64,000 nt of DNA, from positions 2,170,001-2,234,000 of the forward strand of contig CP074402.1 of NCBI GenBank assembly GCA_018388625.1, in the 5' to 3' direction. Source of the stretch: Nocardiopsis eucommiae. GTDB lineage: Bacteria; Actinomycetota; Actinomycetes; Streptosporangiales; Streptosporangiaceae. Under the pieces are notes generated by a model. The model was not told the DNA's origin, did no database searches, and was given only the letters and a program-made list of their open reading frames with translations. The position numbers and the translations under genes are program-made. Positions 5,402 through 62,775 of the stretch are shown piece by piece (positions within the stretch are counted from its first letter, which is position 1; the number at the start of each line of letters is the position of its first letter).

Positions 5402-5898
5402 TGGATTTTGAAATCCGGACGTCGAATGCAAAATTCCGGGGATTCTCACTTCCTCTTGCGGATGGGTTTTCTGGAATGTGGTTCGGAGATGATGCAGGCT
5501 GAGGGATGCTTTGGTTCGAGTCATGGTCGGGGGCGTTGATGTGGTGCGACGCCCTCACCAGCTGCTGGTGGCCCGAACCTGATGCCTGAGTTTCCGTCCG
5601 CGAACCTGTGTGGGAAGTAGGCGAGACCGTAGCCCGAGAATGTGTGGGCTCCGGTTGGCCATGAAGTTCGTGACGCGCGTGGGATGGCCAGGGATGTCTG
5701 GAGGTAGCGGAGCTTTCGACGGTTCCCGTTTGAGAAGCGGCGGAGTGGACTGAACCCCTGCGTATGGGACGAGGTCTTCTCTGTGGGGCGATCTTCATCC
5801 CTGAAAGCGCTCGTCCATGGGGGTGACTTGAAGATCGAATCCAGGGAGGGTGTACCGATCGGTGTGTCGTCTCGGCAGAGTCGGCTGCGGCACACCGT
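5402..5898. other. Intergenic region, no supported gene
   Basis: About 500 bp of reduced GC content between the immunity gene and the MerR promoter. Open frames exist on the minus strand, but their translations are rich in Pro, Arg and Ser without motifs. Such a stretch after an RHS module may be a residue of displaced toxin tips, but I find no recognisable domain. Confidence 0.4.
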
Positions 5899-41430: not shown

Positions 41431-42666
41431 TCAGGCGCGGCGGAAGGCCACGGCGATGTTGTGGCCGCCGAACCCGAAGGACTCGTTGATGGCGGCGACG
41501 TCCCCGCTCGGCATCTCCCGGGGCTTGTCGCGGACGATGTCCACGGCCGCCTCCGGGTCGAGCTCGGAGATGTTGATGGTCGGCGGGATCTGGCCCTCGT
41601 GCAGCGCGAGGATCGTCGCGATCGACTCCACCGCCCCGGCGCCGCCCAGGAGGTGGCCCGTCATGGACTTGGTGGAGGTCACCGCGACCCGGTCGGCGGC
41701 GGACTCGCCCAGGGCCGAGCGGATCGCGCGGGTCTCACCGACGTCCCCGGCCGGGGTCGACGTGGCGTGCGCGTTGACGTGCACGATGTCGCTCGGTCGG
41801 AGGTCGGCGTCGGCCAGCGCCTGGGTGATGGCACGGGCCTGGCCCGCGCCCTCCGGGTCCGGCATGACGATGTCGTGGGCGTCGTCGGTGTAGCCGACAC
41901 CGGCGGCGTGGGCGTACACGTGCGCGCCGCGCCTGGCGGCGTGCTCGGCCGACTCCAGGACGAGGATGCCCGCGCCCTCGCCCATGACGAAGCCGTCGCG
42001 GTTCCTGTCCCAGGGGCGGGACGCGGTCTGCGGGTCGTCGTTGCGCGTGGACAGCGCGCGCATGGAGGCGAAGGAGGCGATGTTCAGGGGTGGATCGCGG
42101 CCTCGGTACCGCCCGCGATCACCACGTCGGCCCGGCCCGCGCGGATCATGTCCACACCGTTGGCGATCGCCTCGGCGCTGGAGGCGCAGGCGCTGACCGG
42201 GGCGTGGGCGCCCGCGCGCGCGGTGAACTCCAGGGCCACGGCGGCGGCCGGGCTGTTGGGCATGAGCATGGGCACGGTGAACGGGGAGACCCGCTTCCAG
42301 CCCTTCTCACGGAAGGTGTCGTACTGCTCCAGGATGGTGAGGATGCCACCGATGCCGCTGGAGACCACCACGCCGAGACGGAGGGGGTCGACGTCGGGGG
42401 CGCCCGCGTGGTCCCAGGCCTCCTGCGCCGCGATCAGGGCGAACTGCTGGGTCCGGTCGAGGCGGCGCAGCCGGGGCGCGGCAGCTTCTCCGAGGGTTCC
42501 TGCGCGATCTGCCCGGCGAAGTGCACCGGAAGCTTCTCGTGCCAGTCCTCCGGCAGCATGCTGATTCCGGAGCGGCCGTCGAGGAGCGCGGACCATGTGG
42601 TCGCGACGTCACCCCCGAGGGGGTGGTGGCGCCGAGGCCGGTGACGACGACATCGGTCTTGGACAT
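41431..42666 (-). CDS. fabF: Beta-ketoacyl-ACP synthase II, frame broken three times
   Basis: Condensing enzyme elongating acyl-ACP with malonyl-ACP. It starts MSKTDVVVTGLGATTP, with TWSALLDGRSGISML in the next frame. The nucleophile Cys is in VSACASSAEAIANG, and the two His in NAHATSTPAGD and KSMTGHLLGGAG; the end is GFGGHNIAVAFRRA. Single bases are missing in the G-runs 42619-42623, 42473-42476 and 42087-42090. Corrected length is 412 residues, exactly family-normal. As the last gene of an essential operon, real triple frameshifting is implausible. Confidence 0.93.
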
Positions 42667-42799
42667 GATCCGATCGCCCTTCTCGTGGGTCGATCCCGGC
42701 TCGGTGCCGGGAGGCGTGGCGAATGAGTGGGTCTGGGGTGTCCTTGGTGGGGACGGGTCGGGCCGCCGGACCGGGGTGCGGACCGGCGGCCCGGACGCG

Positions 42800-43042
42800 C
42801 TACTTCTGGATGAAGTTGATGACGTCCTGGACCGTCTTGAGGTCCTTGAGCTGGTCGTCGGGGATCTCCACGCCGAACTTGTCCTGCGCGGCGACGGCGA
42901 TCTCGACCATGGACAGCGAGTCGATGTCCAGGTCGTCCACGAACGACTTCTCGGGGGTGACCTCGGCGGGCTCCGTACCGACGATCTCCTCGACGATGTC
43001 GCCGAGGCCCTTGAGGATGTCCTGCTCGCTGTGGTCGGCCAT
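42800..43042 (-). CDS. acpP: Acyl carrier protein
   Basis: 80-residue acidic four-helix carrier protein starting MADHSEQDILKGLGDIVEE. The phosphopantetheine attachment Ser42 lies in DLDIDSLSMVEI. It carries growing acyl chains in type II fatty acid synthesis. Between fabH and fabF, intact frame. A longer frame upstream is not used: the ATG at 43042 has a purine-rich ribosome site (AAGGAG) in front. Confidence 0.96.
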   Translation of the reverse strand: MADHSEQDILKGLGDIVEEIVGTEPAEVTPEKSFVDDLDIDSLSMVEIAVAAQDKFGVEIPDDQLKDLKTVQDVINFIQK

Positions 43043-43133
43043 GTCGTGTTTCTCCTTGCTTGACGAACGTGGTGTCGGTGACGTTCCCGAACGGGGCGGG
43101 CGGGCCCGCGTCCGCTGGGATCGGATCATCGGA

Positions 43134-44089
43134 TCAGGGGATGCGGATCACCTGTGCGGCGTAGACCAGGCCCGCACCGAATCCCAGGGTGAGCACGGTG
43201 CTCCCCGACGGCAGCTCCCCGCGTTCGACCATGCGCGACAGCGCGAGAGGGATCGAGGCGGAGGAGGTGTTGCCAGCGGTGACGATATCGCGGGCCACGA
43301 GTGCCTGGGGTGCCCCCAGCTTGCGCGCGATGGACTCGACGATCCGCAGGTTGGCCTGGTGGGGCACGAAGGCGGTGAGCTCGGACGGCTCCACACCGGC
43401 GCGCTCCAGCGCCTCCAGGGCCACCTTGTACAACTCGGTGGTGGTCCACCGGAAGACGGCCTGACCCTCCTGGTGGAGGTACTTGCCCTCACGCAGGTGG
43501 ATCGTGTCGGCGCGCTCGCCCGAGGAACCCCAGACGACCGGACCGACGGCGTGCTCCTCGGAGGCCGAGACCACGGCGGCCCCGGCACCGTCGGCGAAGA
43601 TCACACAGGTGGACCGGTCCTCCCAGTCCACCCAGTCGCTGAGCTTCTCCGAGCCGATCACCAGGACGTTGCGCGAGCTTCCGGCCCGGACCGAGTCCGA
43701 GGCCAGCCCGAGCGCGTAGACGAAGCCCGCGCAGGCCGCGTTGACGTCGAAGGCACCCGGAGCGGAGATGCCGAGCCGCGCGGCGACGGTCGCCGCGGTG
43801 TTGGGGATCTGGTCCTGCACGGTGCAGGTGGCCACGATCACCAGGTCGATGTCCTCGGGGAGAGCCCGCCCGCCGCGAGGGCCTTGCCTCCGGCGGCGAC
43901 GGCCATGCTCGCCACGGAGTCCTCGGGTCCGGCGACGCGACGCTCCCTGATGCCCACACGGCTCTGGATCCACTCGTCGTTGGTGTCGACGCGGGCCTCC
44001 AGATCGGCGTTGGTCACGACCCGCGACGGCTGGTACCCGCCGAAGGAACGGATCGCGGCACCGCCGGGCGCACTGGGGACGTTGAACAT
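43134..44089 (-). CDS. fabH: Beta-ketoacyl-ACP synthase III, frame broken once
   Basis: Starts fatty acid synthesis by condensing acyl-CoA primer with malonyl-ACP. N-terminus MFNVPSAPGGAAIRSFGGYQPSRVVTN with DEWIQSRVGIRERRVA. After a missing base in the G-run 43857-43860 it continues DIDLVIVATCTVQDQIPNTA. Catalytic Cys in DVNAACAGFVY, His in VPHQANLRI, Asn in TAGNTSSASIP. Corrected length 318 residues. It follows fabD directly (2-bp gap). Confidence 0.94.
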
Positions 44090-44091
44090 GC

Positions 44092-45074
44092 TCAGCCTTC
44101 CTGCTGGCTGCTCGCGGGGGAGGGGGTCCCCGCGTGCTCCTTGATGAGAGCGCTGGCGCGTTCGAGGTCGTCGGGGGTCTTCACCGCGAGGATCTCGATG
44201 CCACGCAGCGCGCGCTTGGCGAGGCCACTGAGCGTGCCCGCCGGGGTCAGCTCGATGGACGCGGTCACCCCGAGGTCGGAGAGGGTGTCGGTGCAGGCGT
44301 CCCAGCGGACCGGCGAGGAGATCTGCGAGACCAGGCGGTCCAGGTACTCGGCGCCGCTCTCGACCACGGCTCCGTCGGCGTTCGACAGAAGACGGACGCT
44401 GGGGTCGGCGGTGGCCAGGCTCCGGGCGGCGTCCCGCACCCGCTCCACGGCCGGGGCCATGTGCTCGGTGTGGAAGGCGCCCGCCACGGACAGGGGCCGC
44501 AGCCGGGCCCGCTCGGGCGGGTTCTCGGCGAACGCCGCCAGCTGGGCGGTGGTTCCGGCGGCCACGATCTGACCGGAGCCGTTGTCGTTGGCCGGGGTCA
44601 GCCCGGCGGCCTCGATGGCGGCCAGGACGGCCTCGCGCTCACCGCCCAGGATCGCGGTCATCCCGGTCTCGGTGCGGGCGGCGGCGTCGGCCATCCCACG
44701 GCCGCGCTCGGCCACCAGGGCCAGCGCGTCCTTGGGGAGAGCACACCGGCCAGCGCGGCGGCGGTGAACTCACCGACGCTGTGCCCGGCCGTGGCGTCCA
44801 CGAGGGAGGGCGAGGCGGGCAGCGGGGCGCCGGGGGCGGTCAGCGGGCCGAGCAGCGCGGTGGCCGCGGCCAGGCCGGCGCTCACCAGGAGCGGTTGGGC
44901 GACGGCGGTGTCGCGGATCTCGTCCGCGTCCGCCGTGGTGCCGTAGCGCACGAGGTCGAGACCGGTCACCTCGGACCACGAGGAGAACGTCTCGGCCATG
45001 CCGGGGAGTTCGAGCCACGGGGAGAGGAAACCGGGAACCTGGGCGCCTTGGCCTGGAGCAACGATTACAAGCAC
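44092..45074 (-). CDS. fabD: Malonyl-CoA:ACP transacylase, frame broken once
   Basis: Loads malonyl groups from malonyl-CoA onto ACP. Starts at GTG 45074 (VLVIVAPGQGAQVPGFL). Nucleophile Ser in ATAGHSVGEFTAAA, His in GAFHTEHMAPA. The N- and C-terminal parts are joined by one missing base in the G-run 44734-44737 (VLSPKDALALVAERGRGM). Corrected length is 327 residues. First gene of fabD-fabH-acpP-fabF. The first codons and upstream region are markedly A/T-richer than the rest, where a FasR-type dyad is found. Confidence 0.93.
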
Positions 45075-45141
45075 GACATCAACCTTGCCCTGTAGGAGAT
45101 CACCAGCTGGATGGTGGGAGACACGAAGTTCACCGAAGTCC

Positions 45142-45162
45142 TTTTGTAGGTAATCCACAAAA
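45142..45162. promoter_or_regulatory. Candidate FasR operator before fabD
   Basis: TTTTGT-N9-ACAAAA dyad (45142-45147 and 45157-45162), centred about 78 bp before the fabD start and between fabD and the divergent fasR gene. In Streptomyces, FasR binds upstream of fabD to activate the operon. The same dyad with equal spacing recurs at 57141-57161. Confidence 0.7.
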
Positions 45163-45328
45163 AGCCACCGGTGATGTCCCCACAAACCCGAAACGGGTGG
45201 AGGAGATCACTTTCCGACGGTACGCGGGCCCCCTCACGCCTCGCCCCCGGACCGCCCGGTGCGGGGCGTGACGGCCGACACGGAGGCGAACTCCGGATCG
45301 GGTGCGGAGAGGATGCGAACCTAGACGA

Positions 45329-46567
45329 GTGAACACCGAACCCCGACCGACCGAGGACGGCGCGAGCGCGCCGACCGGGAACGGCGCCCCTCAGGACCAG
45401 ATCCGCGCCGAGACCGTCCGACGCCTGGAACGCTCCATGGGGGCGCTGGGCACCGCGGCGGTCAGCCGTATGGAGGAGCGACTCGGCTGGTTCCGCCGGA
45501 TGTCGGCCCAGGACCGGTCGTGGATCGGCCTCGTGGCGCAGTCCGGAGTGGCGGCCTTCGTGGACTGGTTCCGTGACCCGGAACGCGGTCGTCCCGCGAT
45601 CACGGTGGAGGTCTTCGGCACCGCCCCGCGCGAACTGACCCGGTCGGTCTCCCTCCAGCAGACCGTCGACATGATCCGGGTGGTCATCGAGGTGGTCGAG
45701 AACCAGGTCGACGACCTCGCCGCCCCGGGCGGCGAACAGCAGCTGCGCGAGGCGATGCTCCGCTACACGCGCGAGGTGGCCTTCAGCTCCGCCAAGGTCT
45801 ACGCCCGCGCGGCCGAGGCCCGTGGCGCCTGGGACGCCCGGCTGGAGGCGCTGATCGTCGACGCGCTCCTGCACGGGGACCAGGTGGAGGGGCTCCAGAC
45901 CTGGGGGTCGGCGCTGGGCTGGTCGCACACGCCGGTGATCGCGGTGGCCGGGGACATCGGTGACGAGGACGGCGGCAAGGTCATGGACGACCTGCGCTCG
46001 GCCGCCCGCCGCCTGGGCTACGACGTGCTGGCGGGCATGCAGGGGCGTCGCGTGGTCGTGGTGGTCGGGGTGGGGGACCGCCATCCGGTCGACGACCTCC
46101 CGATCGAGCCGGTGGAGCCCCTGGCGGGGCTGTTCGGAGACGGACCCGTGGTGGTGGGCCCGGCCGTGGCGGACCTGCACGCGGCGGGATCGTCGGTGCG
46201 GTCCGCGGTGAACGGTCTGCGGGCCGCCGTCGCGTGGCCCGACGCGCCCCGGCCGGTGCTCGCCGACGACCTGCTGCCGGAGCGGGCCCTGGAGGGTGAC
46301 ACGGAGGCCCGCCACCAGCTGGTGACGGAGGTGTACCTGCCGCTCCAGGGCGCCGGTTCCCCGCTGCTGGACACGTTGTCGGTGTACCTCGAGCACGCCT
46401 CGTCACTGGAGGCCACGGCGCGCATGCTCTTCGTGCACCCGAACACGGTGCGCTACCGGCTGAGCCGGATCTCCGAGCTCACCGGGCACATCCCCTCGGA
46501 CGGGCGCGGCTCCTTCGTGCTCCGGGTGGCGGTGGCTCTGGGCCGATTGTCCGAAACCCGGGACTGA
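45329..46567 (+). CDS. fasR: FasR-type fatty acid synthesis regulator (PucR family)
   Basis: 412-residue protein with a conserved N-terminal domain (RRLERSMGALGTAAVSRMEERLGWFRRMSAQDRSWIGLVAQSG), a central regulatory region and a C-terminal PucR/CdaR-type HTH: YLEHASSLEATARMLFVHPNTVRYRLSRISELTG (about residues 353-386). Sequence and location divergent from fabD match FasR, the activator of fabDHPF known from Streptomyces coelicolor. GTG start at 45329. The intact frame contrasts with the broken fab genes next to it. Confidence 0.9.
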   Translation: MNTEPRPTEDGASAPTGNGAPQDQIRAETVRRLERSMGALGTAAVSRMEERLGWFRRMSAQDRSWIGLVAQSGVAAFVDWFRDPERGRPAITVEVFGTAPRELTRSVSLQQTVDMIRVVIEVVENQVDDLAAPGGEQQLREAMLRYTREVAFSSAKVYARAAEARGAWDARLEALIVDALLHGDQVEGLQTWGSALGWSHTPVIAVAGDIGDEDGGKVMDDLRSAARRLGYDVLAGMQGRRVVVVVGVGDRHPVDDLPIEPVEPLAGLFGDGPVVVGPAVADLHAAGSSVRSAVNGLRAAVAWPDAPRPVLADDLLPERALEGDTEARHQLVTEVYLPLQGAGSPLLDTLSVYLEHASSLEATARMLFVHPNTVRYRLSRISELTGHIPSDGRGSFVLRVAVALGRLSETRD

Positions 46568-46575
46568 TCCTCCCG

Positions 46576-46593
46576 GTGGCCGGTGTCGGCCAC
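46576..46593 (+). terminator. Short hairpin after fasR
   Basis: Stem GTGGCCG/CGGCCAC with GTGT loop, 9 bp after the fasR stop. Confidence 0.45.
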
Positions 46594-46829
46594 GCTCGGG
46601 GGCGTGACCTCCGCCACGTCGTAATCTGATCGTTGCCTCCCTTTTCGGCTGGTTTATGGAAGTTTCACCAGCGTCGGGTATGTGTGTAACTGACCGTGTG
46701 CGCCCGGGGACTACGCGAAAAGAGATAGCTTTGATACGGGCAGGTTGCAGGTGGAGCCAGAGACGACGAAAACCCTCGGGCGTCGCTCCCCGCACCGCTC
46801 CGTCACGACGTTCTTGGGGGTCCAACGCT

Positions 46830-47803
46830 GTGGTCGAGCGACCGAGGAAGAGGTTCCGGATACTACGCCCGGTGATCGATTTCGTACTCCAACCCACGCA
46901 GGAGGGTGAGCTGCGCAGGCGCGTCCTGTTCTGGCTCCCCGCGCCGGTCCCGGTCCTGGGCCTGGTGTACCTGCTGGTGGGCGGCGCGATGTCCGCCGCC
47001 GGATGGACCATCCTGCTGGCCGCGAGCGTGGGTGTGGGAACGCTGCTGCTCGCCGTGATCGTGCAGCCCACCCCGCTTCCCGAGGGGCTGGCGCCGCCGG
47101 TCTCGGCCCGCCGCTCCCTGCACCGCTTCCGGCAGTTCACCCAGCTGCGGGTGGCGCTGGCGCTGGTGCCGGTGGTCATCGGCGCCGCGGCCGCGATCGC
47201 GGGTGGCGGCATGTACCCGCTGTTCGCCGCGCTGGCCCTGGCCTGGCCGCAGCTGCTGCTCGCCATGCCCACCTTCTTCACCATCACCAGGGCTCGCAGG
47301 GCCATGGAGGCCTGGGGTACCACCGCCTACCTCTGGCACGCCCTCTCCCGGCCCGCCAGGGTCACCTGGCCGGTGGTCACCCCGCTGGTCCGCTCCTACC
47401 GTGCGTGGCGCACCGACCGCGCCCGCCGTCTGGAGCGCCAGAAGCAGGAGGACCAGCAGCAGGACCAGGCGTGGAAGGAGGCCGTCGACGAGGAGAAGCG
47501 CAACCCCACCGAGCCGCAGGCGCCCGTCGAGGAACCGCCCGCGACCGAGGGGCCACAGCTCCAGCGCACCCGCAAGCTGCACGCGCTCCCCGAGGAACTC
47601 GACGACCAGGACAACGAGCCCACCACGCTCCTGCCCAAGCCCGAGTTGGGCGAGACCGAGGACGCCCCGCGGCCACCAGGTCGCGCGGCACCGTCAACAG
47701 GGCGGCCCGGGAGCTCCTGGAACAGGGCGGGGCGCTCGGCCTGAGCGTACGCAACCGGCGCCGGGGACACGCGAGTCGGCGTCCGCCCTCGCACAAGCCC
47801 TAG
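46830..47803 (+). CDS. Membrane protein with charged C-terminal tail, frame broken once
   Basis: Starts at GTG (VVERPRKRFRILRPVIDFVLQPTQEGELRRRVLFWL). Four hydrophobic helices between residues 35 and 160, then a strongly charged cytoplasmic tail (LERQKQEDQQQDQAWKEAVDEEKRN). One base is missing in the C-run 47665-47668. The corrected end reads TRSRGTVNRAARELLEQGGALGLSVRNRRRG and gives 324 residues. I do not recognise the family. Confidence 0.6.
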
Positions 47804-47840
47804 GGCCCGGCCGCCCTCCGGCACGAGACTCCGCGACGCA

Positions 47841-47872
47841 CTCCGGCGGCGCCCCCACGGGTGCCGCCGGAG
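47841..47872. terminator. Terminator between membrane protein and phosphatase genes
   Basis: 14-bp stem with one mismatch (CTCCGGCGGCGCCC with GGGTGCCGCCGGAG) and 4-nt loop between convergent genes. Confidence 0.65.
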
Positions 47873-47884
47873 CCGTGTCACGGG

Positions 47885-49551
47885 TCAGATGACGGCCCGG
47901 CGGCGGACCTCGGGCAGGGCGTCGTCCCCGCCCTGCGGGCAGTGGTACCAGCGCGCCTCGGCCTCGCGGCCGTCGAAGACCACCTCACCGATCGTGTTGC
48001 CGAAGTAGGGGCGCTCCGAGAGCCCCCAGGAGAGCGGGGCGCGACGCACCCCCGCCAGCCGCGTCAGGACGCTCCCGGCCAGCCGCAGGGGCCAGCTCGC
48101 GGACACCGTGGCCGCGCGGCGCAGGTTCGGGGAGAGCTGGTTGCACAGCGCGGAGGAGACCAGCTGGGCGACCCGGGAGGTCGTGTGCCCCGCACGGGCC
48201 CGCGCGCGGGCCAGGTAGGAGAAGTGCACGTCTCCGCTGAGCAGCAGGACCGTGGCGGGAGCCGGACCCCTGCCGCCACGGGCGACGTCGAGCACGGCGT
48301 CCGCCAGGCGGTGGAAGGAGTACTGGAAGGCGCCCCAGTGCTCCAGGTCCAGGGCCTGGCGCAGCCGCTCGGCGGGGGTCCTGGCCGCCGCACCCCAGGC
48401 GCCCGCGCACACCGCCTCGTTCCACGCCTCCAGGTGGTGCACGGAGGGCGGCAGCAGGACCGGGACGGTGGAGGCGACCACGAGGTGGTCGGGGCCGCCG
48501 GTCAGGTGCTCGTCCAGCCAGTCGTGACCGTCGGATCCCAGGATGGACCGTGAGCCGCCGGGGAGGTCGTTCTCGTCCAGGTCTCGACCGCAGCGGGTGT
48601 CGGCCACGAGGACCCGTACGCCGCCCACGTCGTGGTGGTGGCTCCACCGGTAGGAGGAGGGCTCGTCGTGCGCGCGCCACGCGAACGCGTCCAGCGCGTC
48701 CCCGGCGTCGGTGCCGCGCTCGCGGTGGTCGCGCACGGCCGCCCACAGCGGGTCCTTGGCGCGCGCGTCGGGGAGAGGTTCCCCACGTGCTGGTACACCC
48801 AGTAGGCGCCGAGTCCGCTGGTCACCCGGGTGCGCCACCACGGGTACCCGTCCATCGCGCCGCGCCAGGCCGCCGAGGTGTTCCAGTCGTCGCGGATGTC
48901 GTGGTCGTCGAAGACCATCAGTGTGGGCACGGTCGACAGCAGCCACCGCACCTGGGGGTCGGACCAGGCCTGTCGGTAGAGCTCGGCGTACTCGTCGAAA
49001 CGGACGACCTCGCCCTCCGGTGCGCCGTCCGGGTCCTCCGCGCCGCGCCTCTCCCGGAGGAAGGCCCGCATGGGCTCCTGGACCTCGTCGGCGTAGACCT
49101 GGTCGCCGATGAGCAGCAGGACCAGGTTGTCCTCGGTCGGGTCCTCACGGGCCAGGCGGCGGGCGGTGGCACGGAGCATGTCGGGGCCGTAGCGGACCAG
49201 GCCCTCGGGAGTGTCACCGGTGGGGGTGTGGCAGGAGCCGTACAGCAGCCGGGTCGGCGCGTCCGGGGACAGGGTGCGCAGGACGCTGGGCGGCAGCGGG
49301 CTGTCGGGTTCGGGCCACACCCGGTCCTCACCGAGGAAGACCTCGTAGGGGAGGACGGAACCCGGCGTCAGGCCCTCGATTTCGCACACGGCGTAGTGGT
49401 GGCCGTGGACCGTGAAGGTGCGGCTGGCCGAGACCGGCCCGCCGTCCACGCGAACCCGGACGTCACAGGGGGCGTCCGTCTCCACCCACACCGTCGCCGT
49501 GGCGGGGCCCACGTGGCGAAGCACGGGCCCCAAAAGTAACGAGACAGTCAC
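47885..49551 (-). CDS. PhoD-like metallophosphatase, frame broken once
   Basis: The first 120 residues form a fibronectin-like domain (LLGPVLRHVGPATATVWVETDAPC, SRTFTVHGHHYAVCEIEGL). The phosphatase domain has YGSCHTP, LLLIGDQVYADE, PTLMVFDDHDIRDDWN, VLLLSGDVHFSYLA and the PhoD-like order of Asp/His/Asn metal ligands. One missing base in the G-run 48770-48773 is corrected to LSPDARAKDPLWAAV. Corrected length is 555 residues. No signal peptide is visible, so it is probably cytoplasmic, unlike secreted PhoD enzymes. Confidence 0.85.
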
Positions 49552-49679
49552 CCTTATCCCTTCTTTCGTCCAGTTTCACACACGTCGAGGAGGAGTATGG
49601 CCCCTTCGCGGGGGTTCGGTCACCTGCGGATCCACGCGTGATGGTTGCACCGGGGGCCAGGCTGCGCGAAGGTGTCGCT

Positions 49680-50090
49680 ATGCGGACACTGATCCTTGAG
49701 CTGCACACCGGCGGATCGGAGAGCGTCACCGACATCACCGAGCAGTGCCGAGAGTTCGTCGCCCGGAGCGGCGGCGACGGCCTGCTCAACGTCTTCGTCC
49801 CGCACGCGACGGCGGGCGTGGCCATCATCGAGCTGGGCGCGGGGTCCGACGACGACCTCCTGGCCTCCCTCGACGACCTGCTGCCAGCCGACGACCGGTG
49901 GCGGCACCGGCACGGGTCCCGAGGACACGGACGCTCACACGTCATGCCGGCGTTCGTCGCACCGCAGACCACACTGCCAGTACTATCCGGCAGACTCGAA
50001 CTGGGCACGTGGCAGTCCGTCGCGATCGTGGACCTGAACGTGGACAACCCGGATCGGCAGGTCCGGTTGTCCTTCCTGGAGTCCGGATGA
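49680..50090 (+). CDS. YjbQ family (UPF0047) protein
   Basis: 136-residue protein of the YjbQ fold, starting MRTLILELHTGGSESVTDITEQCREFV. The conserved features are VFVPHATAGVAIIE, HRHGSRGHGRSHVMPAFVAPQTTLPV and the end LGTWQSVAIVDLNVDNPDRQVRLSFL. Some relatives have thiamine-phosphate synthase-like activity; the physiological role is unclear. Start chosen for the GAAGG ribosome site; two further in-frame start codons lie upstream. Confidence 0.85.
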   Translation: MRTLILELHTGGSESVTDITEQCREFVARSGGDGLLNVFVPHATAGVAIIELGAGSDDDLLASLDDLLPADDRWRHRHGSRGHGRSHVMPAFVAPQTTLPVLSGRLELGTWQSVAIVDLNVDNPDRQVRLSFLESG

Positions 50091-50271
50091 GCTGATTCGA
50101 CGCGAGCCGGGTTCGGACGCGCGTTGACGGGATATGCCACTAGCGTGTGAACTAGGCCATCAGCGATGGTTACGGACCCACGTGACGGGCGACAAAAAAT
50201 GCCCGGCATCGTTGTGACAACTGCTTCGTGCAGGCAAGATTGAGAAAAACCATCTGTGGAGGAGAACTTTC

Positions 50272-50697
50272 GTGAGCGCGACCGCGGGCCAGGCACAAAG
50301 CGAACGCGGCTTGGCTGACCGACTCGGATTCAAGCCGGGTCAGGTGGTGCAGGAATTCGGGTTCGACGACGACGTCGATGAGGGACTGCGCGCTTCCATC
50401 GCCGAACTCACGGGCGAGGCACTGGTCGACGAGGACTTCGACGGCGACGTCGACGCGGCACTGCTGTGGTGGCGGTCCGACGAGGAAGGCGACCTCACCG
50501 ACGCTCTGATGGACACGGTGACGACCATCGCCGACGGAGGGACCATCCTGGTCCTGACCCCGAAGGCCGGTCGTGAGCTGCACGTGTCACCCAACGACGT
50601 GGCCGAGGCCGCCACCACTTCGGGCCTGTCGCAGACCAGCGCGGTCAGCATCGGCGCCGACTGGTCGGGCACCCGCCTGGTCGTTCCCAAGCGGTGA
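50272..50697 (+). CDS. DUF3052 family protein
   Basis: 141-residue protein conserved in actinobacteria. It has RLGFKPGQVVQEFGFDDDVDEGLR, ALLWWRSDEEGDLTDALMDTVTTIADGG and the end TSAVSIGADWSGTRLVVPKR. The domain resembles small alpha/beta proteins of unknown function. GTG start with GGAGGAGAA upstream. The 180-bp upstream region is A/T-richer and should hold the promoter. Confidence 0.85.
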   Translation: MSATAGQAQSERGLADRLGFKPGQVVQEFGFDDDVDEGLRASIAELTGEALVDEDFDGDVDAALLWWRSDEEGDLTDALMDTVTTIADGGTILVLTPKAGRELHVSPNDVAEAATTSGLSQTSAVSIGADWSGTRLVVPKR

Positions 50698-50769
50698 CGG
50701 ACACCACCCGCACCGGGTGAGTCGTCCGGCGTCGCGCGCCTCGGAAAGCACGGGCGCGCGGCGCTGAGG

Positions 50770-50793
50770 GGTGCCCGTCGACCGACGGGCACC
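50770..50793 (+). terminator. Terminator after the DUF3052 gene
   Basis: Perfect inverted repeat GGTGCCCGTCG/CGACGGGCACC around a 2-nt centre, 73 bp after the stop codon. Confidence 0.55.
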
Positions 50794-50825
50794 GGTACCG
50801 GCCCGCGCGGTCGGCCGACACGAAC

Positions 50826-51299
50826 GTGAGCATGACCGACACCGTCTCCGTGGGCGCCCGCGCGCCCGAGTTCAGCCTCCGGGACCAGTACGGCCAGGAC
50901 ACCGTCCTGAGCGCCCTCCGAGGCGGCCCCGTGCTCGTCGTGTTCTACCCGTTGGCCTTCTCGGGGGTGTGCTCGGGAGAGCTCGCGGACCTGCGCGACC
51001 ACCACGACGAGCTCCGGGACCTCGGGGTCACGGTGCTGGCGGTGTCGGTGGACTCCACCTTCGCCCTGCGCACCTGGTCCGACCGGGAGGGGTTCCCCTT
51101 CGCGCTGCTCTCGGACTTCTGGCCGCACGGCGGGGTCGCCCGGGAGTACGGGGTCCTCGACGAGGGACGCGGAGTGGCCCGGCGGGGCACCTTCCTCATC
51201 GACGCCGAGGGCGTGGTCCGCTGGACCGCGCACACGGCCGTCGACCGACCCCGGGACGTCGAGGAGTACGTGGCCCAGGCCCGCCACCTGGCGGGATGA
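50826..51299 (+). CDS. AhpE-type one-cysteine peroxiredoxin
   Basis: 157-residue thioredoxin-fold peroxidase that reduces hydroperoxides. The peroxidatic Cys49 lies in YPLAFSGVCSGEL, where Ser replaces the usual Thr of the PxxxT/SxxC motif. No clear resolving Cys is present, as in AhpE. The start may be GTG 50826 or ATG 50832. Convergent genes are absent; tRNA-Val follows 52 bp downstream. Confidence 0.85.
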   Translation: MSMTDTVSVGARAPEFSLRDQYGQDTVLSALRGGPVLVVFYPLAFSGVCSGELADLRDHHDELRDLGVTVLAVSVDSTFALRTWSDREGFPFALLSDFWPHGGVAREYGVLDEGRGVARRGTFLIDAEGVVRWTAHTAVDRPRDVEEYVAQARHLAG

Positions 51300-51351
51300 G
51301 CCAGGCGCGAGAACCACCGCGAAGCGGTATGATCTCTCGCGACGCACACAC

Positions 51352-51425
51352 GGGCGCGTAGCTCAGTTGGTTAGAGCAATTGCCTTACAAGCAATAGGCC
51401 AGGGGTTCGAGTCCCTTCGCGCCCA
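51352..51425 (+). tRNA. tRNA-Val (anticodon UAC)
   Basis: 74-nt cloverleaf: acceptor GGGCGCG/CGCGCCC with discriminator A, D-arm GCTC-AGTTGGTTA-GAGC, anticodon stem ATTGC/GCAAT with loop CTTACAA (anticodon TAC at 51386-51388), T-arm AGGGG-TTCGAGT-CCCTT. No CCA is encoded. Confidence 0.95.
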
Positions 51426-51434
51426 CTCCACCCA

Positions 51435-51481
51435 GGAACGACCCCGCTCGGGGAGGTCCTCCGTCCGCGCCGGGTCGTTCC
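51435..51481 (+). terminator. Hairpin after tRNA-Val
   Basis: Perfect 10-bp stem GGAACGACCC/GGGTCGTTCC with a 27-nt interior that can fold further, 9 bp after the tRNA. Confidence 0.5.
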
Positions 51482-51707
51482 GTCGTCTCCTCTGGGGACG
51501 GCCCCCGGAGTCCCGACGCGGGGCCACGCCGTCCCGCCGCCGGACGGTCGGAGGCACGACGGGTTCCGCCCGGACCGCGGCCCGGGGCGACCGGCGAACG
51601 CCGCGAGTTCCACCTCGACGACCGCGCGGGAGCGCCCCGAGAGCCCTGAGAGGCCGCGCACCATCCTCAGACAGCCCGTCACGGACCGTTGACGGGGGCC
51701 CGGGCCG

Positions 51708-52539
51708 TCAGCCCGGGATGACCACGACCGGGCACCTGGCTCGCACGGTGAGCCTCTGACCGACGGACCCGCGCAGGAGCCCGGCGGTCAGCCCCAGACT
51801 CCGGGTCCCCACGACGATCAGGTCGGCCTCGGCCGAGCGCTCCACGAGGAGGTCGACCGGGTCCCCGCGCCGCTCCTCCTCACGGACGCGCACGTCCCGG
51901 CCCGACCCCTTCGCCTCCTCGACCGCGGCCGTCCCTGAGCGCTCGTTCGGGGAGGAGTCTCCGATCGCTCGGAAGAGCAGGAGCTCCGCGCCGCGTATCC
52001 GGGCCTCTTCCAGGGCGTAGGACACCACCGCGCCGGTGGAGGGGCCACCGTCGACCCCCGCGACGACGCGGCCCCGTCCCTGTGAGGCGGCCCCGGAGAC
52101 GACGGCGACGGGGCCGGGGAGCGGCCGATCAGTCTCCGGCTGACGGATCCCGCGATGGTCCCGGACAGGAATCCCAGTCGGCGCGTGCCGACCACCAACG
52201 GTCCCCCTCCGCGGCGGCGAGCAGCGCGTCGACGGGATCCCCGGCGACGACCCGCATCTCGATGCGGTCCTCCGGTACGGCCCCCACGGCGCGGGAGAAG
52301 GCCGCCTCCGCCCTGCGCCGGAGCCGCTGGTTGGTCTGGAACTCCTCGCGGGAGATCTGCCTCCGGGAGTCCGAGACCGGACCCCTGCGGGCCGGGCCGG
52401 AGGCCCCCACGGTCACGATCCGGAGTGAGGCCTCCCAGAGGCGCGCGTAGGCGCTCGCCCACTCGACGGCGTCGAGACTGGCACGGGAGCCGTCACCGCC
52501 CACGGTCACGGTCGATCGGGCGTTCACGTTTCCTCGCAT
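51708..52539 (-). CDS. Tandem universal stress protein, frame broken twice
   Basis: Two USP domains. The first starts MRGNVNARSTVTVGGDGSRASLDAVEWASAYARLW and ends with the ATP-binding signature GPLVVGTRRLGFLSGTIAGSVSRRLIG. The second starts VVAGVDGGPSTGAVVSYALEEARIRGAELLLF and ends LIVVGTRSLGLTAGLLRGSVGQRL. Both G2xG9xGS/T-type motifs suggest ATP binding. Missing bases lie in the runs 52203-52207 and 52110-52113. Corrected length is 277 residues, normal for tandem USP proteins of actinomycetes, usually induced by hypoxia or stress. Confidence 0.85.
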
Positions 52540-52594
52540 CAGAACTCGGCCTCCGCGTGCCGTGCGTCGCTCGGCCGACGCGGTCGGTTCACCG

Positions 52595-54010
52595 TCAGCA
52601 CGCGCTCTCCTGTTTCTCGGCGGTGACGCCGCCGAGGTCGTCGGTGATGGACAGGTCACTCCCGGAGGAGGAGCCGCCGAAGCCCTCCCAGTCCGATCCG
52701 GCGACGAGTTCGAGGGTCTGTTCCAGGCCCTCGGCCTCCTCGGTCTGGGCGTTGGTGAGGCTGTCCGCGAGCAGCTTGGCCGCGGCCTCGTCCCCCGGAC
52801 CGTGGTAGACGGTGGTCGCGTCGGGGGCGCGTTGGTCGGGGTTGCCCGTGCCGGTGACCACGAAGCCCTCCTGGACCAGGACGGCCTGGATCTCCAGGGC
52901 GAGGCCGTCGATTCCGGTGTTGTTGGCGATCTCGACCGAGACGTCACCGGGCTCCACGGAACTCTCACCGGGCCCTCCGTCATCCTCGTCGTCGCCGTCG
53001 CCGCCGAGGTCCTCGCCGTTGTTGATCGCCTCGAACAGGGCCGGGGCCGCGTCACTCATGATGATGCGGTTCTCGTCGGCCGGGTGGGCGCCGTTGGGAA
53101 CCGTGACGAACTGGACCCGGTCCAGGTCGACCTCACGCATCGAGATCGCGATGTCGGCCATGGTGTCCACCGTCAGCTCCTCGTCGGTGGTGATCGAGTC
53201 CGTGACGGCGCCCAGGAACCGGGTGATGGTGACGGGGCTGGTCATCACGTCACTGCTCAGCACCTCGCGGAGCATGGCGCCCATGAACTCCTGCTGGCGG
53301 TCGATCCGGGACAGGTCGCTGCCGTCCCCCTGGGCATAGCGCGAGCGGACGAAGCCGAGCGAGTCCTCACCGTCCAGGGTCTGGAGCCCGGCGTCGAGCA
53401 CTAGGTGCGCCTTGGGGTCGTCCACCGGCTCGGGGATGCACATCTCGACGCCGCCGATGGCGTCCACCATGTCCTTGAAACCGACGAAGTCCATCATCAG
53501 GAAGTGGTCCAGGTGCACACCCGTGACCTGCTCGACGACCTGCCACTGGCAGCCCACCCCGCCGAAGGTCATCACCGAGCTGATCATGCCCTCCTGCGGA
53601 CTCATGCCCTCGTAGCCCTCCGTCGCCTCGCAGCCGGGCAGGTCGACCATGAGGTCGCGGGGCAGGTTCACCAGGGTCGCCGCGCCGTTGTCCACGTTGA
53701 TGCTCGCGATGAGCATCGTGTCCGGCCTCGCACCCTCTGCGGCCCCGTAGTCGGCGTTCTCCCCCGAGCGCACGTCCGAGCCGATGACGAGGATGTTCAT
53801 GACGCCCTCGACGCTCGTGGGCCGGTCCCACTCGTCGGTGTCCACCTGGGCGGTCGTGATGTTGCCGACCAGTCCCTGGTACCAGCCGTAACTCAGCAGA
53901 CTCGCGATGATGACCAGCGCGGTCGCGACGCACGCGACCCACTTCCCCGTGGAAAGCCGCTGGGATGACGGACCCGACAAATCCCCGTCTCCTCTCTCGT
54001 CTCGACGCAA
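52595..54010 (-). CDS. LytR-CpsA-Psr (LCP) family cell-wall ligase
   Basis: 471-residue membrane-anchored protein. One N-terminal helix (KWVACVATALVIIASLLSYGWY), then the LCP domain with ILVIGSDVRSGEN, RPDTMLIASINVDNGAATLVNLPRDLMVDLPG and SRIDRQQEFMGAML, then a C-terminal LytR_C domain (VSVEIANNTGIDGLALEIQAVL). LCP enzymes attach teichoic acid, arabinogalactan or capsule polymers to peptidoglycan. A CCTGA tandem repeat lies just upstream, suggesting control by the neighbouring two-component system. Confidence 0.9.
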   Translation of the reverse strand: MRRDERGDGDLSGPSSQRLSTGKWVACVATALVIIASLLSYGWYQGLVGNITTAQVDTDEWDRPTSVEGVMNILVIGSDVRSGENADYGAAEGARPDTMLIASINVDNGAATLVNLPRDLMVDLPGCEATEGYEGMSPQEGMISSVMTFGGVGCQWQVVEQVTGVHLDHFLMMDFVGFKDMVDAIGGVEMCIPEPVDDPKAHLVLDAGLQTLDGEDSLGFVRSRYAQGDGSDLSRIDRQQEFMGAMLREVLSSDVMTSPVTITRFLGAVTDSITTDEELTVDTMADIAISMREVDLDRVQFVTVPNGAHPADENRIIMSDAAPALFEAINNGEDLGGDGDDEDDGGPGESSVEPGDVSVEIANNTGIDGLALEIQAVLVQEGFVVTGTGNPDQRAPDATTVYHGPGDEAAAKLLADSLTNAQTEEAEGLEQTLELVAGSDWEGFGGSSSGSDLSITDDLGGVTAEKQESAC

Positions 54011-54043
54011 CCGGGACAGCGTGTCAGTGGTTTCTGAGCGCTT

Positions 54044-54073
54044 CCTGAGGTCAACCTGAAGACGCCCCTCAGG
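54044..54073. promoter_or_regulatory. CCTGA tandem repeat upstream of the LCP gene
   Basis: CCTGA at 54044 and 54055 (11-bp period) and an inverted copy TCAGG at 54069. The second half reads CCTGAAGACG as in the site at 54864. Direct repeats with one-turn spacing are typical for OmpR/PhoB-family regulators. Confidence 0.55.
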
Positions 54074-54106
54074 TTGGTCGGGACCGTGTCGGTACGGGCT
54101 TCGGGG

Positions 54107-54804
54107 TCAGTCGTGGGGGCGAACGTCCTCGATCCCGGCGGAGACGTCGAGGATCACCTCGTAGTCCTGTCCGTCCGCCCCCGGACCAGGACGGACCACC
54201 CCGGCCCGCCCTCCTCGTCGCGCTCGACGGCGGTGGCGCGGGACCCCTCTCCGACCGCCCCCTCGGCAGCGGCGGAGACCTCCTCCCGGTCGGCCTCCCG
54301 ACGGGCTTCGGGGTCCTCCCACGGCGCGGGCCCGCCGTCGGCGTCCCGGAACTGCACTCCGTTGACGGTGAACACGCCCACCCCGTCGCGGGCCGCGTCC
54401 TCCTCGGAGCCGTAGCGCACCCCCAGCGTGACCTCGGTACCCTCCAGGGCGCGCAGCTCCTCCAGGATCGTGCCCGCCGTGCCGTCGCCGTCGAAGTCCT
54501 CCAGCACGGGATCGGTGAGCAACCACGCGCGAGGACCGAAGTCCACCCCCACCCCGGCGACGTACCAGTCCTCGGCGGCACCGCCGGAGCGCAGTTCACC
54601 GATCAGCTGCTCGAAGCCGTCGACCGGCCGTGACGTGCCCTCCCCGACCGGCGAGCGCAGCGTGGGGGCGCCGGTGAAACCGTCGAGCCGGATCGTCTCC
54701 ACCGCCAGGTCCGGGTCCTTGAGCACGACGTACCCGCCCGCGCCCAGGATCGACAGGGCCACCGCCGCGCACGAGACCAGGATCGTCGTGCGGTGTCGCG
54801 TCAT
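54107..54804 (-). CDS. Membrane-anchored PepSY-like protein, frame broken once
   Basis: N-terminus MTRHRTTILVSCAAVALSILGAGGYVVL is a signal anchor or lipoprotein-like signal with Cys. The body contains WLLTDPVLEDFDGDGTAGTILEELRALEGTEVTLGVRYG. The C-terminus, reached after a missing base in the C-run 54178-54182, reads ADGQDYEVILDVSAGIEDVRPHD, the PepSY-type ending. Corrected length is 232 residues. Extracytoplasmic PepSY proteins often accompany two-component systems as inhibitors or sensors; here it is divergent from one and shares its repeat element. Confidence 0.65.
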
Positions 54805-54863
54805 CGGTCCCTCCAACGGCGGGTGTCGAGAGCATCCATTGTCCACCAGCCCGATGATGGGAA

Positions 54864-54893
54864 CCTGAAAGCAGCCTGAAGACGGCTTTCAGG
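54864..54893. promoter_or_regulatory. CCTGA tandem repeat between PepSY gene and response regulator
   Basis: CCTGA at 54864 and 54875 (11-bp period) followed by AGACG, and inverted TCAGG at 54889. A 9-bp perfect inverted repeat CCTGAAAGC/GCTTTCAGG overlaps it. The site sits between the divergent start codons, 60 bp before the PepSY gene and 71 bp before the response regulator. Confidence 0.65.
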
Positions 54894-54964
54894 TTTCCTT
54901 CATCAAGGGCTCAGCTTCCAACGGCATGCTGGGCTGGTCCAGGGAAACGGGAGGGTTGCGCGCG

Positions 54965-55630
54965 GTGGCGATTCTGGTGGTGGAGGACGAGGAGGGCATC
55001 GTCTCCTTCGTCCGGCGCGCTCTGGAGAACGCCGGGCACACGGTGGTGACCGCCGCGGACGGTATCGACGGGCTGGTCATGGCGCTGTCGACCGACGTCG
55101 AGCTGGTCATCCTCGATCTGGGACTACCGGGCCTGGCGGGCGAGGAGGTCCTGCGCCGCCTCCGCCTGCGCCGTCCCTCGGTGCCGGTGATCGTGCTTAC
55201 CGCCAAGGACGCGGTCGGCGATCGGATCGCCAACCTCGACGCCGGGGCCGACGACTACGTGGTCAAGCCGTTCAGCGTCAACGAACTGCTGGCCCGGGTC
55301 CGCGCCAGGCTGCGCACCAGCGGTTCGGACCGGGCCGACGGCGTGACCGCCCGGGGCGTGACCCTGGACCTGGGGAGGCACACGGCCTTCGTGGACGGAG
55401 CCGTCGTCCCCCTGTCCGCGCGGGAGTTCGCCCTCCTGTCGGTCCTGCTCCACCACCCCAACCAGGTCTTCTCCCAGGCCCAGCTGCTCGACCTGGTCTG
55501 GGGCTACGACTTCGACGGCGCCTCCAACGTGGTCGAGGTCTACGTCAGCCAACTGCGCCGCAAACTCGGAGCGGACCGCATCGAGACCGTGCGGGGCGTC
55601 GGCTACCGGTTGAGCGGCGGCGAGGGGTGA
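54965..55630 (+). CDS. OmpR family response regulator
   Basis: 221-residue regulator. Receiver domain with acidic pocket VVEDEEG, phosphorylated Asp51 in LVILDLGLPG, Thr in VIVLTAKDA and Lys in YVVKPFS; then an OmpR-type winged helix (LDLGRHTAFVDGAVVPLSAREFALL to IETVRGVGYRLSGGEG). I prefer the GTG at 54965 over an ATG 39 bp upstream because it starts directly before the first beta-strand. The gene overlaps the kinase gene by 4 bp (GTGA). Confidence 0.9.
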   Translation: MAILVVEDEEGIVSFVRRALENAGHTVVTAADGIDGLVMALSTDVELVILDLGLPGLAGEEVLRRLRLRRPSVPVIVLTAKDAVGDRIANLDAGADDYVVKPFSVNELLARVRARLRTSGSDRADGVTARGVTLDLGRHTAFVDGAVVPLSAREFALLSVLLHHPNQVFSQAQLLDLVWGYDFDGASNVVEVYVSQLRRKLGADRIETVRGVGYRLSGGEG

Positions 55631-57000
55631 GCCTCACCCGGCGCCTGGTCCTCCGGGCCCTCATGGTGATGGTGCTGGTGGTCGGCGGTGTCACCGCCCT
55701 GACCCATGAACTGGTCCTCGTCTCGGGCCGTAACGACGTGGACGACCTGCTGCGGGAGGAGTCCGCGCTGCTGAGCGACACGTTGGGCGACCAACTGCCC
55801 GCCGCGGCGGGTCTGGACGGCATGGTGTCGGGGCCCGAGGCCGAGCGAGCGGCGCAGCGTGCGCTGTCGATTCGCCCCAGCGGCCCCCGGCACGTGTCGC
55901 TGGTGCACGTCGACGGGGTCCGTCTGCAGAGCACCGGCGGCCCCGCCGAGGTCGCCGGGCTGATGCGCGGTGACGACGCGCCCGTCTCCGCGCCCGGGGT
56001 CGCGCGCACCGTGGACACCGACGTCGGTCGGGTCCGGGTCCTGGACACCCCCGTCACCGACGCGGCCGACGAGAAGATCGCCGTCATCACCGTCGCCGCG
56101 CCGTTGGACACCGTCCAGGACACGGCCGCCACGGTCCTGCTGTTCACCGCCCTGGCGGGAGGCATCGGCATCGGTGGGGGAGGGGCCGCGCTGTGGCTGG
56201 TGGTGCGGCGCACCCTGGCACCGGTGCGGAAGGTGTCGGCGGCGGCACAGCGGATCTCACCGACCGACCTGGCCACCCGCGTTCCCGTCCCGGACACCGG
56301 GGACGAGATCGCGGAGCTGGCCACCGAGATCAACCGCATGCTCACCCGCATCGAGCAGGCGGAGACGGGACGGCGCCGCTACCTGGCGGCGATCTCCCAC
56401 GAGGTCCGCACGCCCCTCGCCGTCGCGGAGGGACACCTGGAGCTCCTGGGCGGCCCGGAGGCGGAGATCGTGCACGCCGAACTGGAGCGGTTGCGGCGCG
56501 TGCTGGAGGACCTCATGGCCGTGGCGCGCGGCGGTGACGGGATCGACGCCGACCGGGGTCCCGTGTTCCTGCCGGACCTGTTCGACGCCGTCCGGGCCAG
56601 GGTGGGGTCCCTCTCCTTCGCGCGGTCCGTGGTCTTCCATGAGGCCGCCCCGCAGGTCGTGCTCGGAGACGAGGCCCGGTTGGAGCAGTGCCTGATGAAC
56701 CTGGTCTCCAACGCGATCGACCACAACCCGCCGCACGTCGTCGTGGACGTGGCCACCAGGGTCGAGGGGGACACGGTGGCCCTGACCGTCACGGACGACG
56801 GGGACGGGATCGACCCGGACGTGCTCCCCCTGGTGTTCGAGCCGTTCGTGACGACCCGTCCCAACGAGGCGGGAGGGCTCGTCGGCCTGGGACTGTCGAT
56901 CGTGCGGTCCCTGGTGACGGCACAGGGCGGTGACGTGGACGTCCGGAGCGGTCCCGAGGGGACCACGGTCCGGATCCTCCTGCCCGTCGCCAGGGCCTGA
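55627..57000 (+). CDS. Sensor histidine kinase
   Basis: 457-residue membrane kinase with helices at about residues 8-30 and 168-194 flanking an extracytoplasmic sensor of 135 residues. HAMP domain follows (RRTLAPVRKVSAAAQRIS). Phosphorylated His258 lies in YLAAISHEVRTPLAVAEG, the N-box in CLMNLVSNAIDHNPPH, and G-boxes in DDGDGIDPD and GGLVGLGLSIV. GTG start inside the regulator stop codon. The signal is unknown; the neighbours (LCP ligase, PepSY) point to the cell envelope. Confidence 0.92.
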   Translation: MSLTRRLVLRALMVMVLVVGGVTALTHELVLVSGRNDVDDLLREESALLSDTLGDQLPAAAGLDGMVSGPEAERAAQRALSIRPSGPRHVSLVHVDGVRLQSTGGPAEVAGLMRGDDAPVSAPGVARTVDTDVGRVRVLDTPVTDAADEKIAVITVAAPLDTVQDTAATVLLFTALAGGIGIGGGGAALWLVVRRTLAPVRKVSAAAQRISPTDLATRVPVPDTGDEIAELATEINRMLTRIEQAETGRRRYLAAISHEVRTPLAVAEGHLELLGGPEAEIVHAELERLRRVLEDLMAVARGGDGIDADRGPVFLPDLFDAVRARVGSLSFARSVVFHEAAPQVVLGDEARLEQCLMNLVSNAIDHNPPHVVVDVATRVEGDTVALTVTDDGDGIDPDVLPLVFEPFVTTRPNEAGGLVGLGLSIVRSLVTAQGGDVDVRSGPEGTTVRILLPVARA

Positions 57001-57140
57001 CCGGGCCTCCCGGTGGGGTGGGGCACCGCTCCTGGGAGATTCGGTCACCTCCCTCGCGCACCCTCCGACAGCACGCCAGATCCGTGCGGTTGTGGCAAAC
57101 CTCGCGTCTGGCGACCCCCAGCGGCCCCTGGGGAGACGGT

Positions 57141-57161
57141 TTTTGTGGAGATCCCACAAAG
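57141..57161. promoter_or_regulatory. Candidate FasR operator before the acyl-CoA carboxylase gene
   Basis: TTTTGT-N9-ACAAAG, with extended dyad TTTGTGG...CCACAAA, 143 bp before the carboxylase start. Half sites and 9-bp spacing equal the dyad before fabD, and both are followed by GCCAC. Confidence 0.65.

Positions 57162-57293: not shown

Positions 57294-62775
<5,482 letters not shown>

Follow-up and report, generated by a model that had tools for sequence, protein, structure and literature searches.

FasR-type dyads precede both fabD and a multidomain carboxylase gene in Nocardiopsis eucommiae, suggesting an extended FasR regulon

Two matching dyads in the window

The 64,000-nucleotide stretch of Nocardiopsis eucommiae DNA analyzed here (contig CP074402.1, positions 2,170,001 to 2,234,000; hereafter the window) carries fabD, the divergently oriented regulator gene fasR, and a gene for a multidomain carboxylase that may supply malonyl-coenzyme A (malonyl-CoA). 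Inverted repeats of one type precede both fabD and the carboxylase gene, and an earlier reading made from the sequence alone had taken them as signs of an extended FasR regulon. Papers are cited by PMC number and, unless a main text is named, are represented by excerpts. The features concerned are as follows.

45142..45162, minus strand: putative fabD operator, FasR-type, TTTTGT-N9-ACAAAA, equal to the MabR operator of PMC5541348
57141..57161, plus strand: putative carboxylase operator, FasR-type, TTTTGT-N9-ACAAAG, with the core TTTGTGG-N5-CCACAAA forming a perfect dyad
45302..46567, plus strand: fasR, PucR-type regulator with GGDEF_2 and HTH_30 domains (Pfam), divergent from fabD
44092..45074, minus strand: fabD, malonyl-CoA:acyl carrier protein transacylase, in open reading frames (ORFs) 44092-44715 and 44658-45185 with an apparent frameshift between them
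57294..60083, plus strand: carboxylase part 1, biotin carboxylase and biotin carrier (Pfam), start GTG at 57294
59201..61447, plus strand: carboxylase part 2, ACC_central (PF08326, E 2.7e-17), second frame
60856..62775, plus strand: carboxylase part 3, carboxyltransferase (PF01039, E 3.1e-32), third frame

Both dyads can be read directly at these positions, with the half sites and nine-base spacing that the sequence-only reading had given. The fabD dyad is centered at 45152, which lies 78 base pairs (bp) 5′ of the fabD start codon (GTG at 45074 on the minus strand, with the start motif VLVIVAPGQGAQVPGFLSPW) and 93 bp 5′ of the APGQG codons. The carboxylase dyad, one letter off the MabR operator, is centered 143 bp 5′ of the GTG at 57294. 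A GCCAC that had been taken as a shared extension is a matter of chance, lying 3′ of the carboxylase dyad but 5′ of the fabD dyad, and it was rejected on the further ground that it does not recur beside the sites in relatives. Conserved blocks were seen 3′ of both dyads, from which no transcription start is assignable; across relatives the distances from dyad to start codon, as opposed to mapped transcription starts, are nearly fixed at both fabD and the carboxylase.

Scored with a matrix of fabD sites, the carboxylase dyad reaches 28.9, compared with 11.6 for the best place in the window outside both dyads. Allowing up to two mismatches, TTTTGT-N9-ACAAA gives four matches on both strands of the window, at just the two dyads, versus 0.32 expected, and one of 100 shuffles got to four. 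The assembly (6,104,387 bases, 84% complete) was scanned as well: TTTGT-N9-ACAAA occurs at five places and its reversed control at none, the three further places having inner letters unlike those of the two dyads, and the core TTTGTGG-N5-CCACAAA with up to two mismatches is confined to the two dyads. With up to three mismatches, the core is found at 26 places versus 77 for its control, and these looser matches are therefore background. A genome-wide check proposed with the sequence-only reading came out in its favor: across the rest of the assembly the strict motif is rare (five places in all, two with the full core).

The regulator and the fabD dyads of relatives

The fasR protein matches PF17853 and PF13556 above the Pfam cut-offs, and by sequence (phmmer) it matches the chains of mycobacterial MabR (Rv2242) in 9f80 (E 4e-50) and 9fb1 (E 3e-25), such that both solved MabR domains, N- and C-terminal, are covered. 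The helix-turn-helix core FVHPNTVRYRL is common to the two proteins. According to PMC5541348, MabR recognizes TTTTGT(N)9ACAAAA, and its Streptomyces coelicolor orthologue FasR (42% identical) is an activator of fasII that acts from about –67 through highly similar repeats; the same paper proposes that MabR and the mycobacterial TetR-type FasR sense acyl-CoA. The identity of the window's fabD dyad with the published MabR operator supports the sequence-only interpretation. FasR is present in 119 of 120 genomes of the family, a few of them holding a fragment only, and the window FasR is closest to that of its genus mates.

The fabD dyad is widely retained. From 93 fasR stretches fetched, 89 had a readable fabD start, and in 84 of these a dyad with at most three mismatches in the 14 specified positions stands 92-93 bp 5′ of the APGQG codons; the choice between the two registers relied on the consensus, a small circularity. 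This register holds whether fasR is divergent from fabD or precedes it, and a better consensus match elsewhere in the 450 bp searched was found in three of the 89 (L132, L133 and L154).

Conservation before the carboxylase

The carboxylase was matched at E 1e-150 in 65 of the 120 family genomes, yielding 67 upstream stretches, from which eight paralogues (46-61% identity) and one masked orthologue (G111) were set aside to leave 58 orthologues. A site lies 100-160 bp 5′ of the start in 55 of these 58 readable orthologues (G004 being below the 99% shuffle level), and in none of the eight paralogues; the conservation anticipated by the sequence-only reading thus holds at a nearly fixed distance. 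A matrix trained on 85 unique fabD sites alone, when applied to the carboxylase upstreams, placed its best match in the same interval in 52 of 57 orthologues and, in 54 of 57, outscored 99% of dinucleotide shuffles. A de novo motif search that was given no prior recovered the dyad from 55 of the 57 carboxylase upstream stretches. Two FasR-type sites are present in three genus mates (G046, G088 and G113; stretches L044, L036 and L082), the nearer at about –136 to –139 and the farther at about –233 to –279; the second-ranked site is the one in the 100-160 bp interval.

Of the best 80 named loci, 67 were scanned and 65 were scorable, with a score of 14 as threshold. This score was attained in 33 of the 65, at 100-165 bp in 31 and at 221 and 83 bp in Prauserella and Jiangella, respectively. 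Over the 733,041 bases of the 67 loci, 33 of the 35 matches of at least 14 sit just 5′ of the carboxylase, with two elsewhere. Genera with the site include Streptomonospora, Nocardiopsis, Nonomuraea, Actinomadura, Saccharopolyspora (S. hirsuta and S. rosea), Amycolatopsis, Yinghuangia, Tessaracoccus and Propioniciclava; Micromonospora is mixed, with three loci carrying the site and one (L199) lacking it. Taken together, the rarity of the motif and its conservation support the proposal of an extended FasR regulon with a second, putative operator before the carboxylase.

The multidomain carboxylase and its two lineages

The carboxylase domains follow the order biotin carboxylase, biotin carrier, ACC_central and carboxyltransferase over three ORFs that overlap owing to frame changes, while most relatives have a single frame of ~1,820-1,970 amino acids; enzymes of the SACE_4237 type are homodimers with one continuous chain of ~200 kDa. 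Since fabD and fabF are split too, the frame splits in all three genes (41431-45185 and 57294-62775) are likely sequencing errors and not pseudogenes. The usual essential carboxyltransferase is missing from a large group of actinobacteria (PMC6491548), and the multidomain carboxylase SACE_4237 of Saccharopolyspora erythraea is essential and makes malonyl-CoA (PMC6491548). The window enzyme is a putative multidomain acetyl-CoA carboxylase that probably makes malonyl-CoA.

A tree of 30 carboxylase genes resolves two supported clades. In this tree the window carboxylase is placed among genes of other genera (identity up to 84%) and apart from its genus mates (76-77%), while its FasR is closest to that of the genus mates, which suggests either transfer or differential loss of two lineages. 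Most sites within the window's own clade are full FasR-type dyads.

The fabD operon, accD6 and the occurrence of the carboxylase site

Downstream of fabD, whose first ORF matches Acyl_transf_1 with a score below the curated cut-off (E 9.3e-5, Pfam), the gene order continues as follows.

43134..43973, minus strand: fabH (Pfam ACP_syn_III and ACP_syn_III_C)
42800..43129, minus strand: acyl carrier protein ORF between fabH and fabF, identified from sequence alone
41431..42666, minus strand: fabF, in ORFs 42307-42666, 42084-42596 and 41431-42063 in different frames; ketoacyl-synt and Ketoacyl-synt_C match the last two (Pfam), and the first was read from sequence
40086..41257, minus strand: EAL-CBS type gene directly after fabF, with weak Pfam matches below cut-off (40086-41048 and 40529-41257)

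An accD6-type carboxyltransferase gene, present behind fabF in many relatives, is absent there in the window. In relative G023 the order is ketosynthase, carboxyltransferase, EAL-CBS gene (stretch L329: ketoacyl synthase at 4621-5859, Carboxyl_trans at 3038-4624, EAL at 1623-2789), whereas in the window the EAL-CBS gene follows fabF directly. The presence of this gene behind the fabD operon in both genomes raises a possible link between cyclic di-GMP turnover and fatty acid genes.

In mycobacteria, accD6 belongs to the fas-II operon (PMC11617747). A PF01039 search covered 32 genomes, namely 25 family genomes without the multidomain enzyme and seven Mycobacteriales; among the matches listed, a carboxyltransferase gene lies 4-6 kb from fasR in at least 13 of the 25 and at least six of the seven. 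For tallies across the family, counted by hand, accD6-type genes were taken as those at least 65% identical to the query, a few of them fragments only. An accD6-type gene occurs in 60 of the 61 family genomes without an orthologous multidomain carboxylase, the exception, G029, being 84% complete. The 59 genomes with the multidomain carboxylase comprise 29 with accD6 and 30 without, the window's genome among the latter; strict complementarity of the two genes is rejected by the 29 that hold both. As accD6 is on a contig other than that of fasR in drafts G003, G019, G020, G041 and G105, and 11-14 kb off in G082 and G002, its operon membership is not established genome by genome.

The carboxylase site was found in 20 of 21 named genomes without accD6, versus 6 of 22 with accD6 near fasR (43 genomes; Fisher 5e-6). 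Within the family, the median site score is 21.75 for genomes without accD6 (n = 28) compared with 17.2 for those with it (n = 29; p 0.003; G080 and G111 excluded). Nocardioides offers a contrast within one genus: N. caeni lacks accD6 and has a weak site (15.2), while in N. immobilis and N. luteus accD6 is present and the site absent. As a raw association, the site goes with fabD operons that have no accD6-type gene, a point that goes beyond the sequence-only reading.

A possible account of this distribution, to which we give somewhat less than even odds, is that the site follows fatty acid synthase I (FAS I) and not accD6. Where FAS I makes the bulk fatty acids and FAS II is used for mycolates, a lineage would have no reason to tie the carboxylase to a FAS II regulator. 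Consistent with this, the site occurs in 0 of 11 FAS I genomes and in 26 of the 32 others. However, the 11 FAS I genomes all fall on a single branch of the FasR tree, and among the 32 named genomes without FAS I the site is found in 20 of 20 lacking accD6 versus 6 of 12 having it (p 0.001), so that FAS I is insufficient as the sole cause of site absence. Family genome G080 may be a FAS I-negative case with neither accD6 nor site. This account concerns distribution only and can stand together with FasR acting at both dyads.

Probable assignment of the dyads to FasR

We consider it very probable that both dyads are operators of the PucR-type activator encoded at 45302-46567, FasR, the orthologue of MabR. 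Several observations weigh against this assignment or against the coupling built on it. The first group concerns the sites themselves. In the second carboxylase clade, the left half-site is mostly TTTGGNCG and not TTTGTRG; a degenerate left half-site occurs in about half of the carboxylase orthologues, a feature that the sequence-only reading had missed. Comparison of the fabD and carboxylase sites within versus between 50 genomes revealed no covariation (half-sites p 0.43, spacer p 0.25). The degenerate half-site and the null covariation are the main weakness of the assignment for the second clade. No site was found in the interval for family orthologues G011, G084 and G080 (of 58), 32 of the 65 named loci score below 14, and among these loci the site is lacking in Nocardia, Gordonia, Tsukamurella, Rhodococcus, Mycobacterium, Kribbella and Saccharothrix. 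Motif discovery on the fabD upstreams returned a neighboring promoter or leader block and not the dyad. The loose form TTGTRG-N5-CYACAA occurs in the assembly at the two dyads only, yet its reversed control gives four places; that it is no rarer than the control weighs slightly.

The second group concerns the enzyme and its distribution. The genome contains four more carboxyltransferase loci, which means that malonyl-CoA might also come from enzymes other than the multidomain one, and in Thermobifida fusca a three-subunit enzyme acts on acetyl-CoA (PMC9198275). The accD6 association is confounded with FAS I; of six phylogenetically independent pairs, one to three agree with it, none disagree and the rest are tied (starred branches), too few for significance; and both G080 and Tsukamurella have neither accD6 nor site.

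Set against FasR at both sites, the strongest competitor is that the carboxylase dyad, though similar, is read by another regulator (for instance a PucR-type paralogue or a reader of CCCACAA plus TTTTGG), FasR being confined to fabD. The degenerate half-sites and the absence of covariation speak for it. So does a FasR-like dyad where another PucR-type regulator gene meets a purine/cytosine permease gene (L260, about 2776; G064:C80:262775), by virtue of which PucR relatives may share such sites; PucR-type paralogues as candidate binders count slightly against FasR. We nevertheless regard this alternative as improbable: a matrix from fabD sites alone picks up the carboxylase site, the window's own clade mostly has the full FasR-type dyad, and FasR is near-universal in the family.

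Control of the carboxylase through the dyad by the adjacent two-component system (54926-57000) was also considered. The pair lies directly 5′ of the carboxylase in the window:

54926..55630, plus strand: response regulator (Pfam), 5′ of the carboxylase
55627..57000, plus strand: sensor kinase (Pfam), adjoining the carboxylase

The same dyad, however, stands at fabD. This kinase was not found within 1.5 kb 5′ of the carboxylase in 29 site-bearing relatives (the place of the response regulator is beyond that stretch), and neither kinase nor response regulator was found in the first 3,700 bases of the 67 named loci, 33 of them with the site; both searches were aimed at the adjacent pair alone. 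Because the pair was not found beside the carboxylase in relatives, local control by it is strongly disfavored and in our view very improbable. Finally, the half sites are short and the loose pattern is no rarer than its control, but the strict motif is rare in the assembly and its position is kept in many genera, a conservation that refutes a chance pair of A/T islands and leaves that explanation a negligible probability.

Similar dyads elsewhere

Across the 120 family genomes, exact TTTGT-N9-ACAAA occurs at 62 places (15 at fasR, 5 at the carboxylase, 42 elsewhere) and exact TTGTRG-N5-CYACAA at 55 (12 at fasR, 11 at the carboxylase, 32 elsewhere), gene positions for these tallies having been entered by hand. 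The surroundings of 10 of the latter 32 (L259, L260 and L294-L301) contain one gene of fatty-acid type: in G103, a FasR-type site (L300, about 1551; G103:C1:6279342) lies ~140 bp 5′ of a ketosynthase gene (Pfam ketoacyl-synt), which may be an additional member of the regulon.

Two other recurrent dyads were observed. In the window's genome, TTTGTGCCTGACAGACAAA (L004 1501-1519; G000:C1:4613263-4613281) lies ~86 bp 5′ of a NadA ORF (Pfam E 4e-111), with near-identical sites in genus mates G046 and G088, and is possibly an operator for nicotinamide adenine dinucleotide synthesis. The second, TTTGTCR-N5-TGACAAA (L003 1501-1519; G000:C1:3171074; similar in G046, G113, G048 and G089), has the outer letters of the FasR-type dyad and different inner letters, and probably belongs to another regulator.

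A model for coupling malonyl-CoA supply to chain building

With respect to mechanism, we infer FasR binding, the direction of regulation, acyl-CoA sensing and the order of evolutionary events. A FasR dimer at each site, 5′ of the promoter, would activate the fabD-fabH-acp-fabF operon and, 12 kb off, the multidomain carboxylase, with malonyl-CoA supply and the chain-building enzymes rising and falling together. Activation would last until long-chain acyl-CoA signals sufficiency, a step taken from the proposal for MabR in PMC5541348. In many relatives the same coupling may run via the accD6-type gene inside the fabD operon; where accD6 is gone, as in the window, a separate operator before the multidomain carboxylase would replace coupling by operon. 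The best reading of these comparisons is that malonyl-CoA supply stays under FasR even as one carboxylase gene gives way to another.

We give about even chances to a fuller history, in which FasR would always hold an acetyl-CoA carboxylase, ancestrally accD6 in the fabD operon. A multidomain, eukaryote-like enzyme that acquired a FasR operator of its own would have made accD6 dispensable, followed by repeated accD6 loss, with the genomes that carry both genes as intermediates; the multidomain gene would have moved, as it appears, between genera together with its operator and come under the FasR already present in each recipient. A regulatory link may here have outlived the replacement of a gene, with operon membership exchanged for a separate operator. 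The model offers a testable answer to how actinobacteria without the carboxyltransferase of the Streptomyces and Mycobacterium type tune their supply of malonyl-CoA, which also feeds polyketide antibiotics, and would bring the committed step under a regulator so far known from a single operon.

Comparison with known systems

In Corynebacterium glutamicum, the FasR-fasO system (PMC6460773, PMC7316851 and PMC10933834) resembles the proposed regulon in that one regulator and shared operators serve both acetyl-CoA carboxylase and fatty acid synthase genes. It differs in its unrelated TetR-type repressor, its operator, its FAS I, and its separate accBC and accD1; with a PucR-type regulator in the window and a motif unlike fasO, identity with this system is ruled out. 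The AccR-accS pair of Shewanella (PMC11602165) likewise provides dedicated transcriptional control of a multidomain acetyl-CoA carboxylase, but AccR is a local LysR-type regulator that responds to acetyl-CoA in gammaproteobacteria. SACE_4237 of S. erythraea (PMC6491548) shares the architecture of the window carboxylase, including the central region, and the main text of that paper does not mention FasR.

Closer relatives are the PucR-type systems. Mycobacterial MabR at fasII (PMC5541348 and PMC11617747) is an orthologous regulator whose operator is identical to the fabD site of the window, and the fasII operon includes accD6, which brings a carboxylase part and chain building under one promoter. 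The mycobacterial system differs in that coupling is achieved via operon membership and the operon is devoted to elongating mycolates; scans of 11 FAS I genomes detected no site ahead of the multidomain carboxylase. FasR of S. coelicolor at fabDHPF (PMC5541348 and PMC7324645) is alike in being a PucR-type activator with a highly similar operator and the same target operon, its site lying near –67 from the transcription start, compared with 78 bp 5′ of the fabD codon in the window. The excerpts of these two papers name no carboxylase target for it, whereas in the window fasR is divergent from fabD and a second putative operator stands at the carboxylase. No description of a link between FasR or MabR and a multidomain carboxylase was found in searches of open-access papers that did not take in the original Streptomyces FasR paper. 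FasR at fabD and MabR at fasII are already known, and the FasR-type site at a multidomain carboxylase appears to be new.

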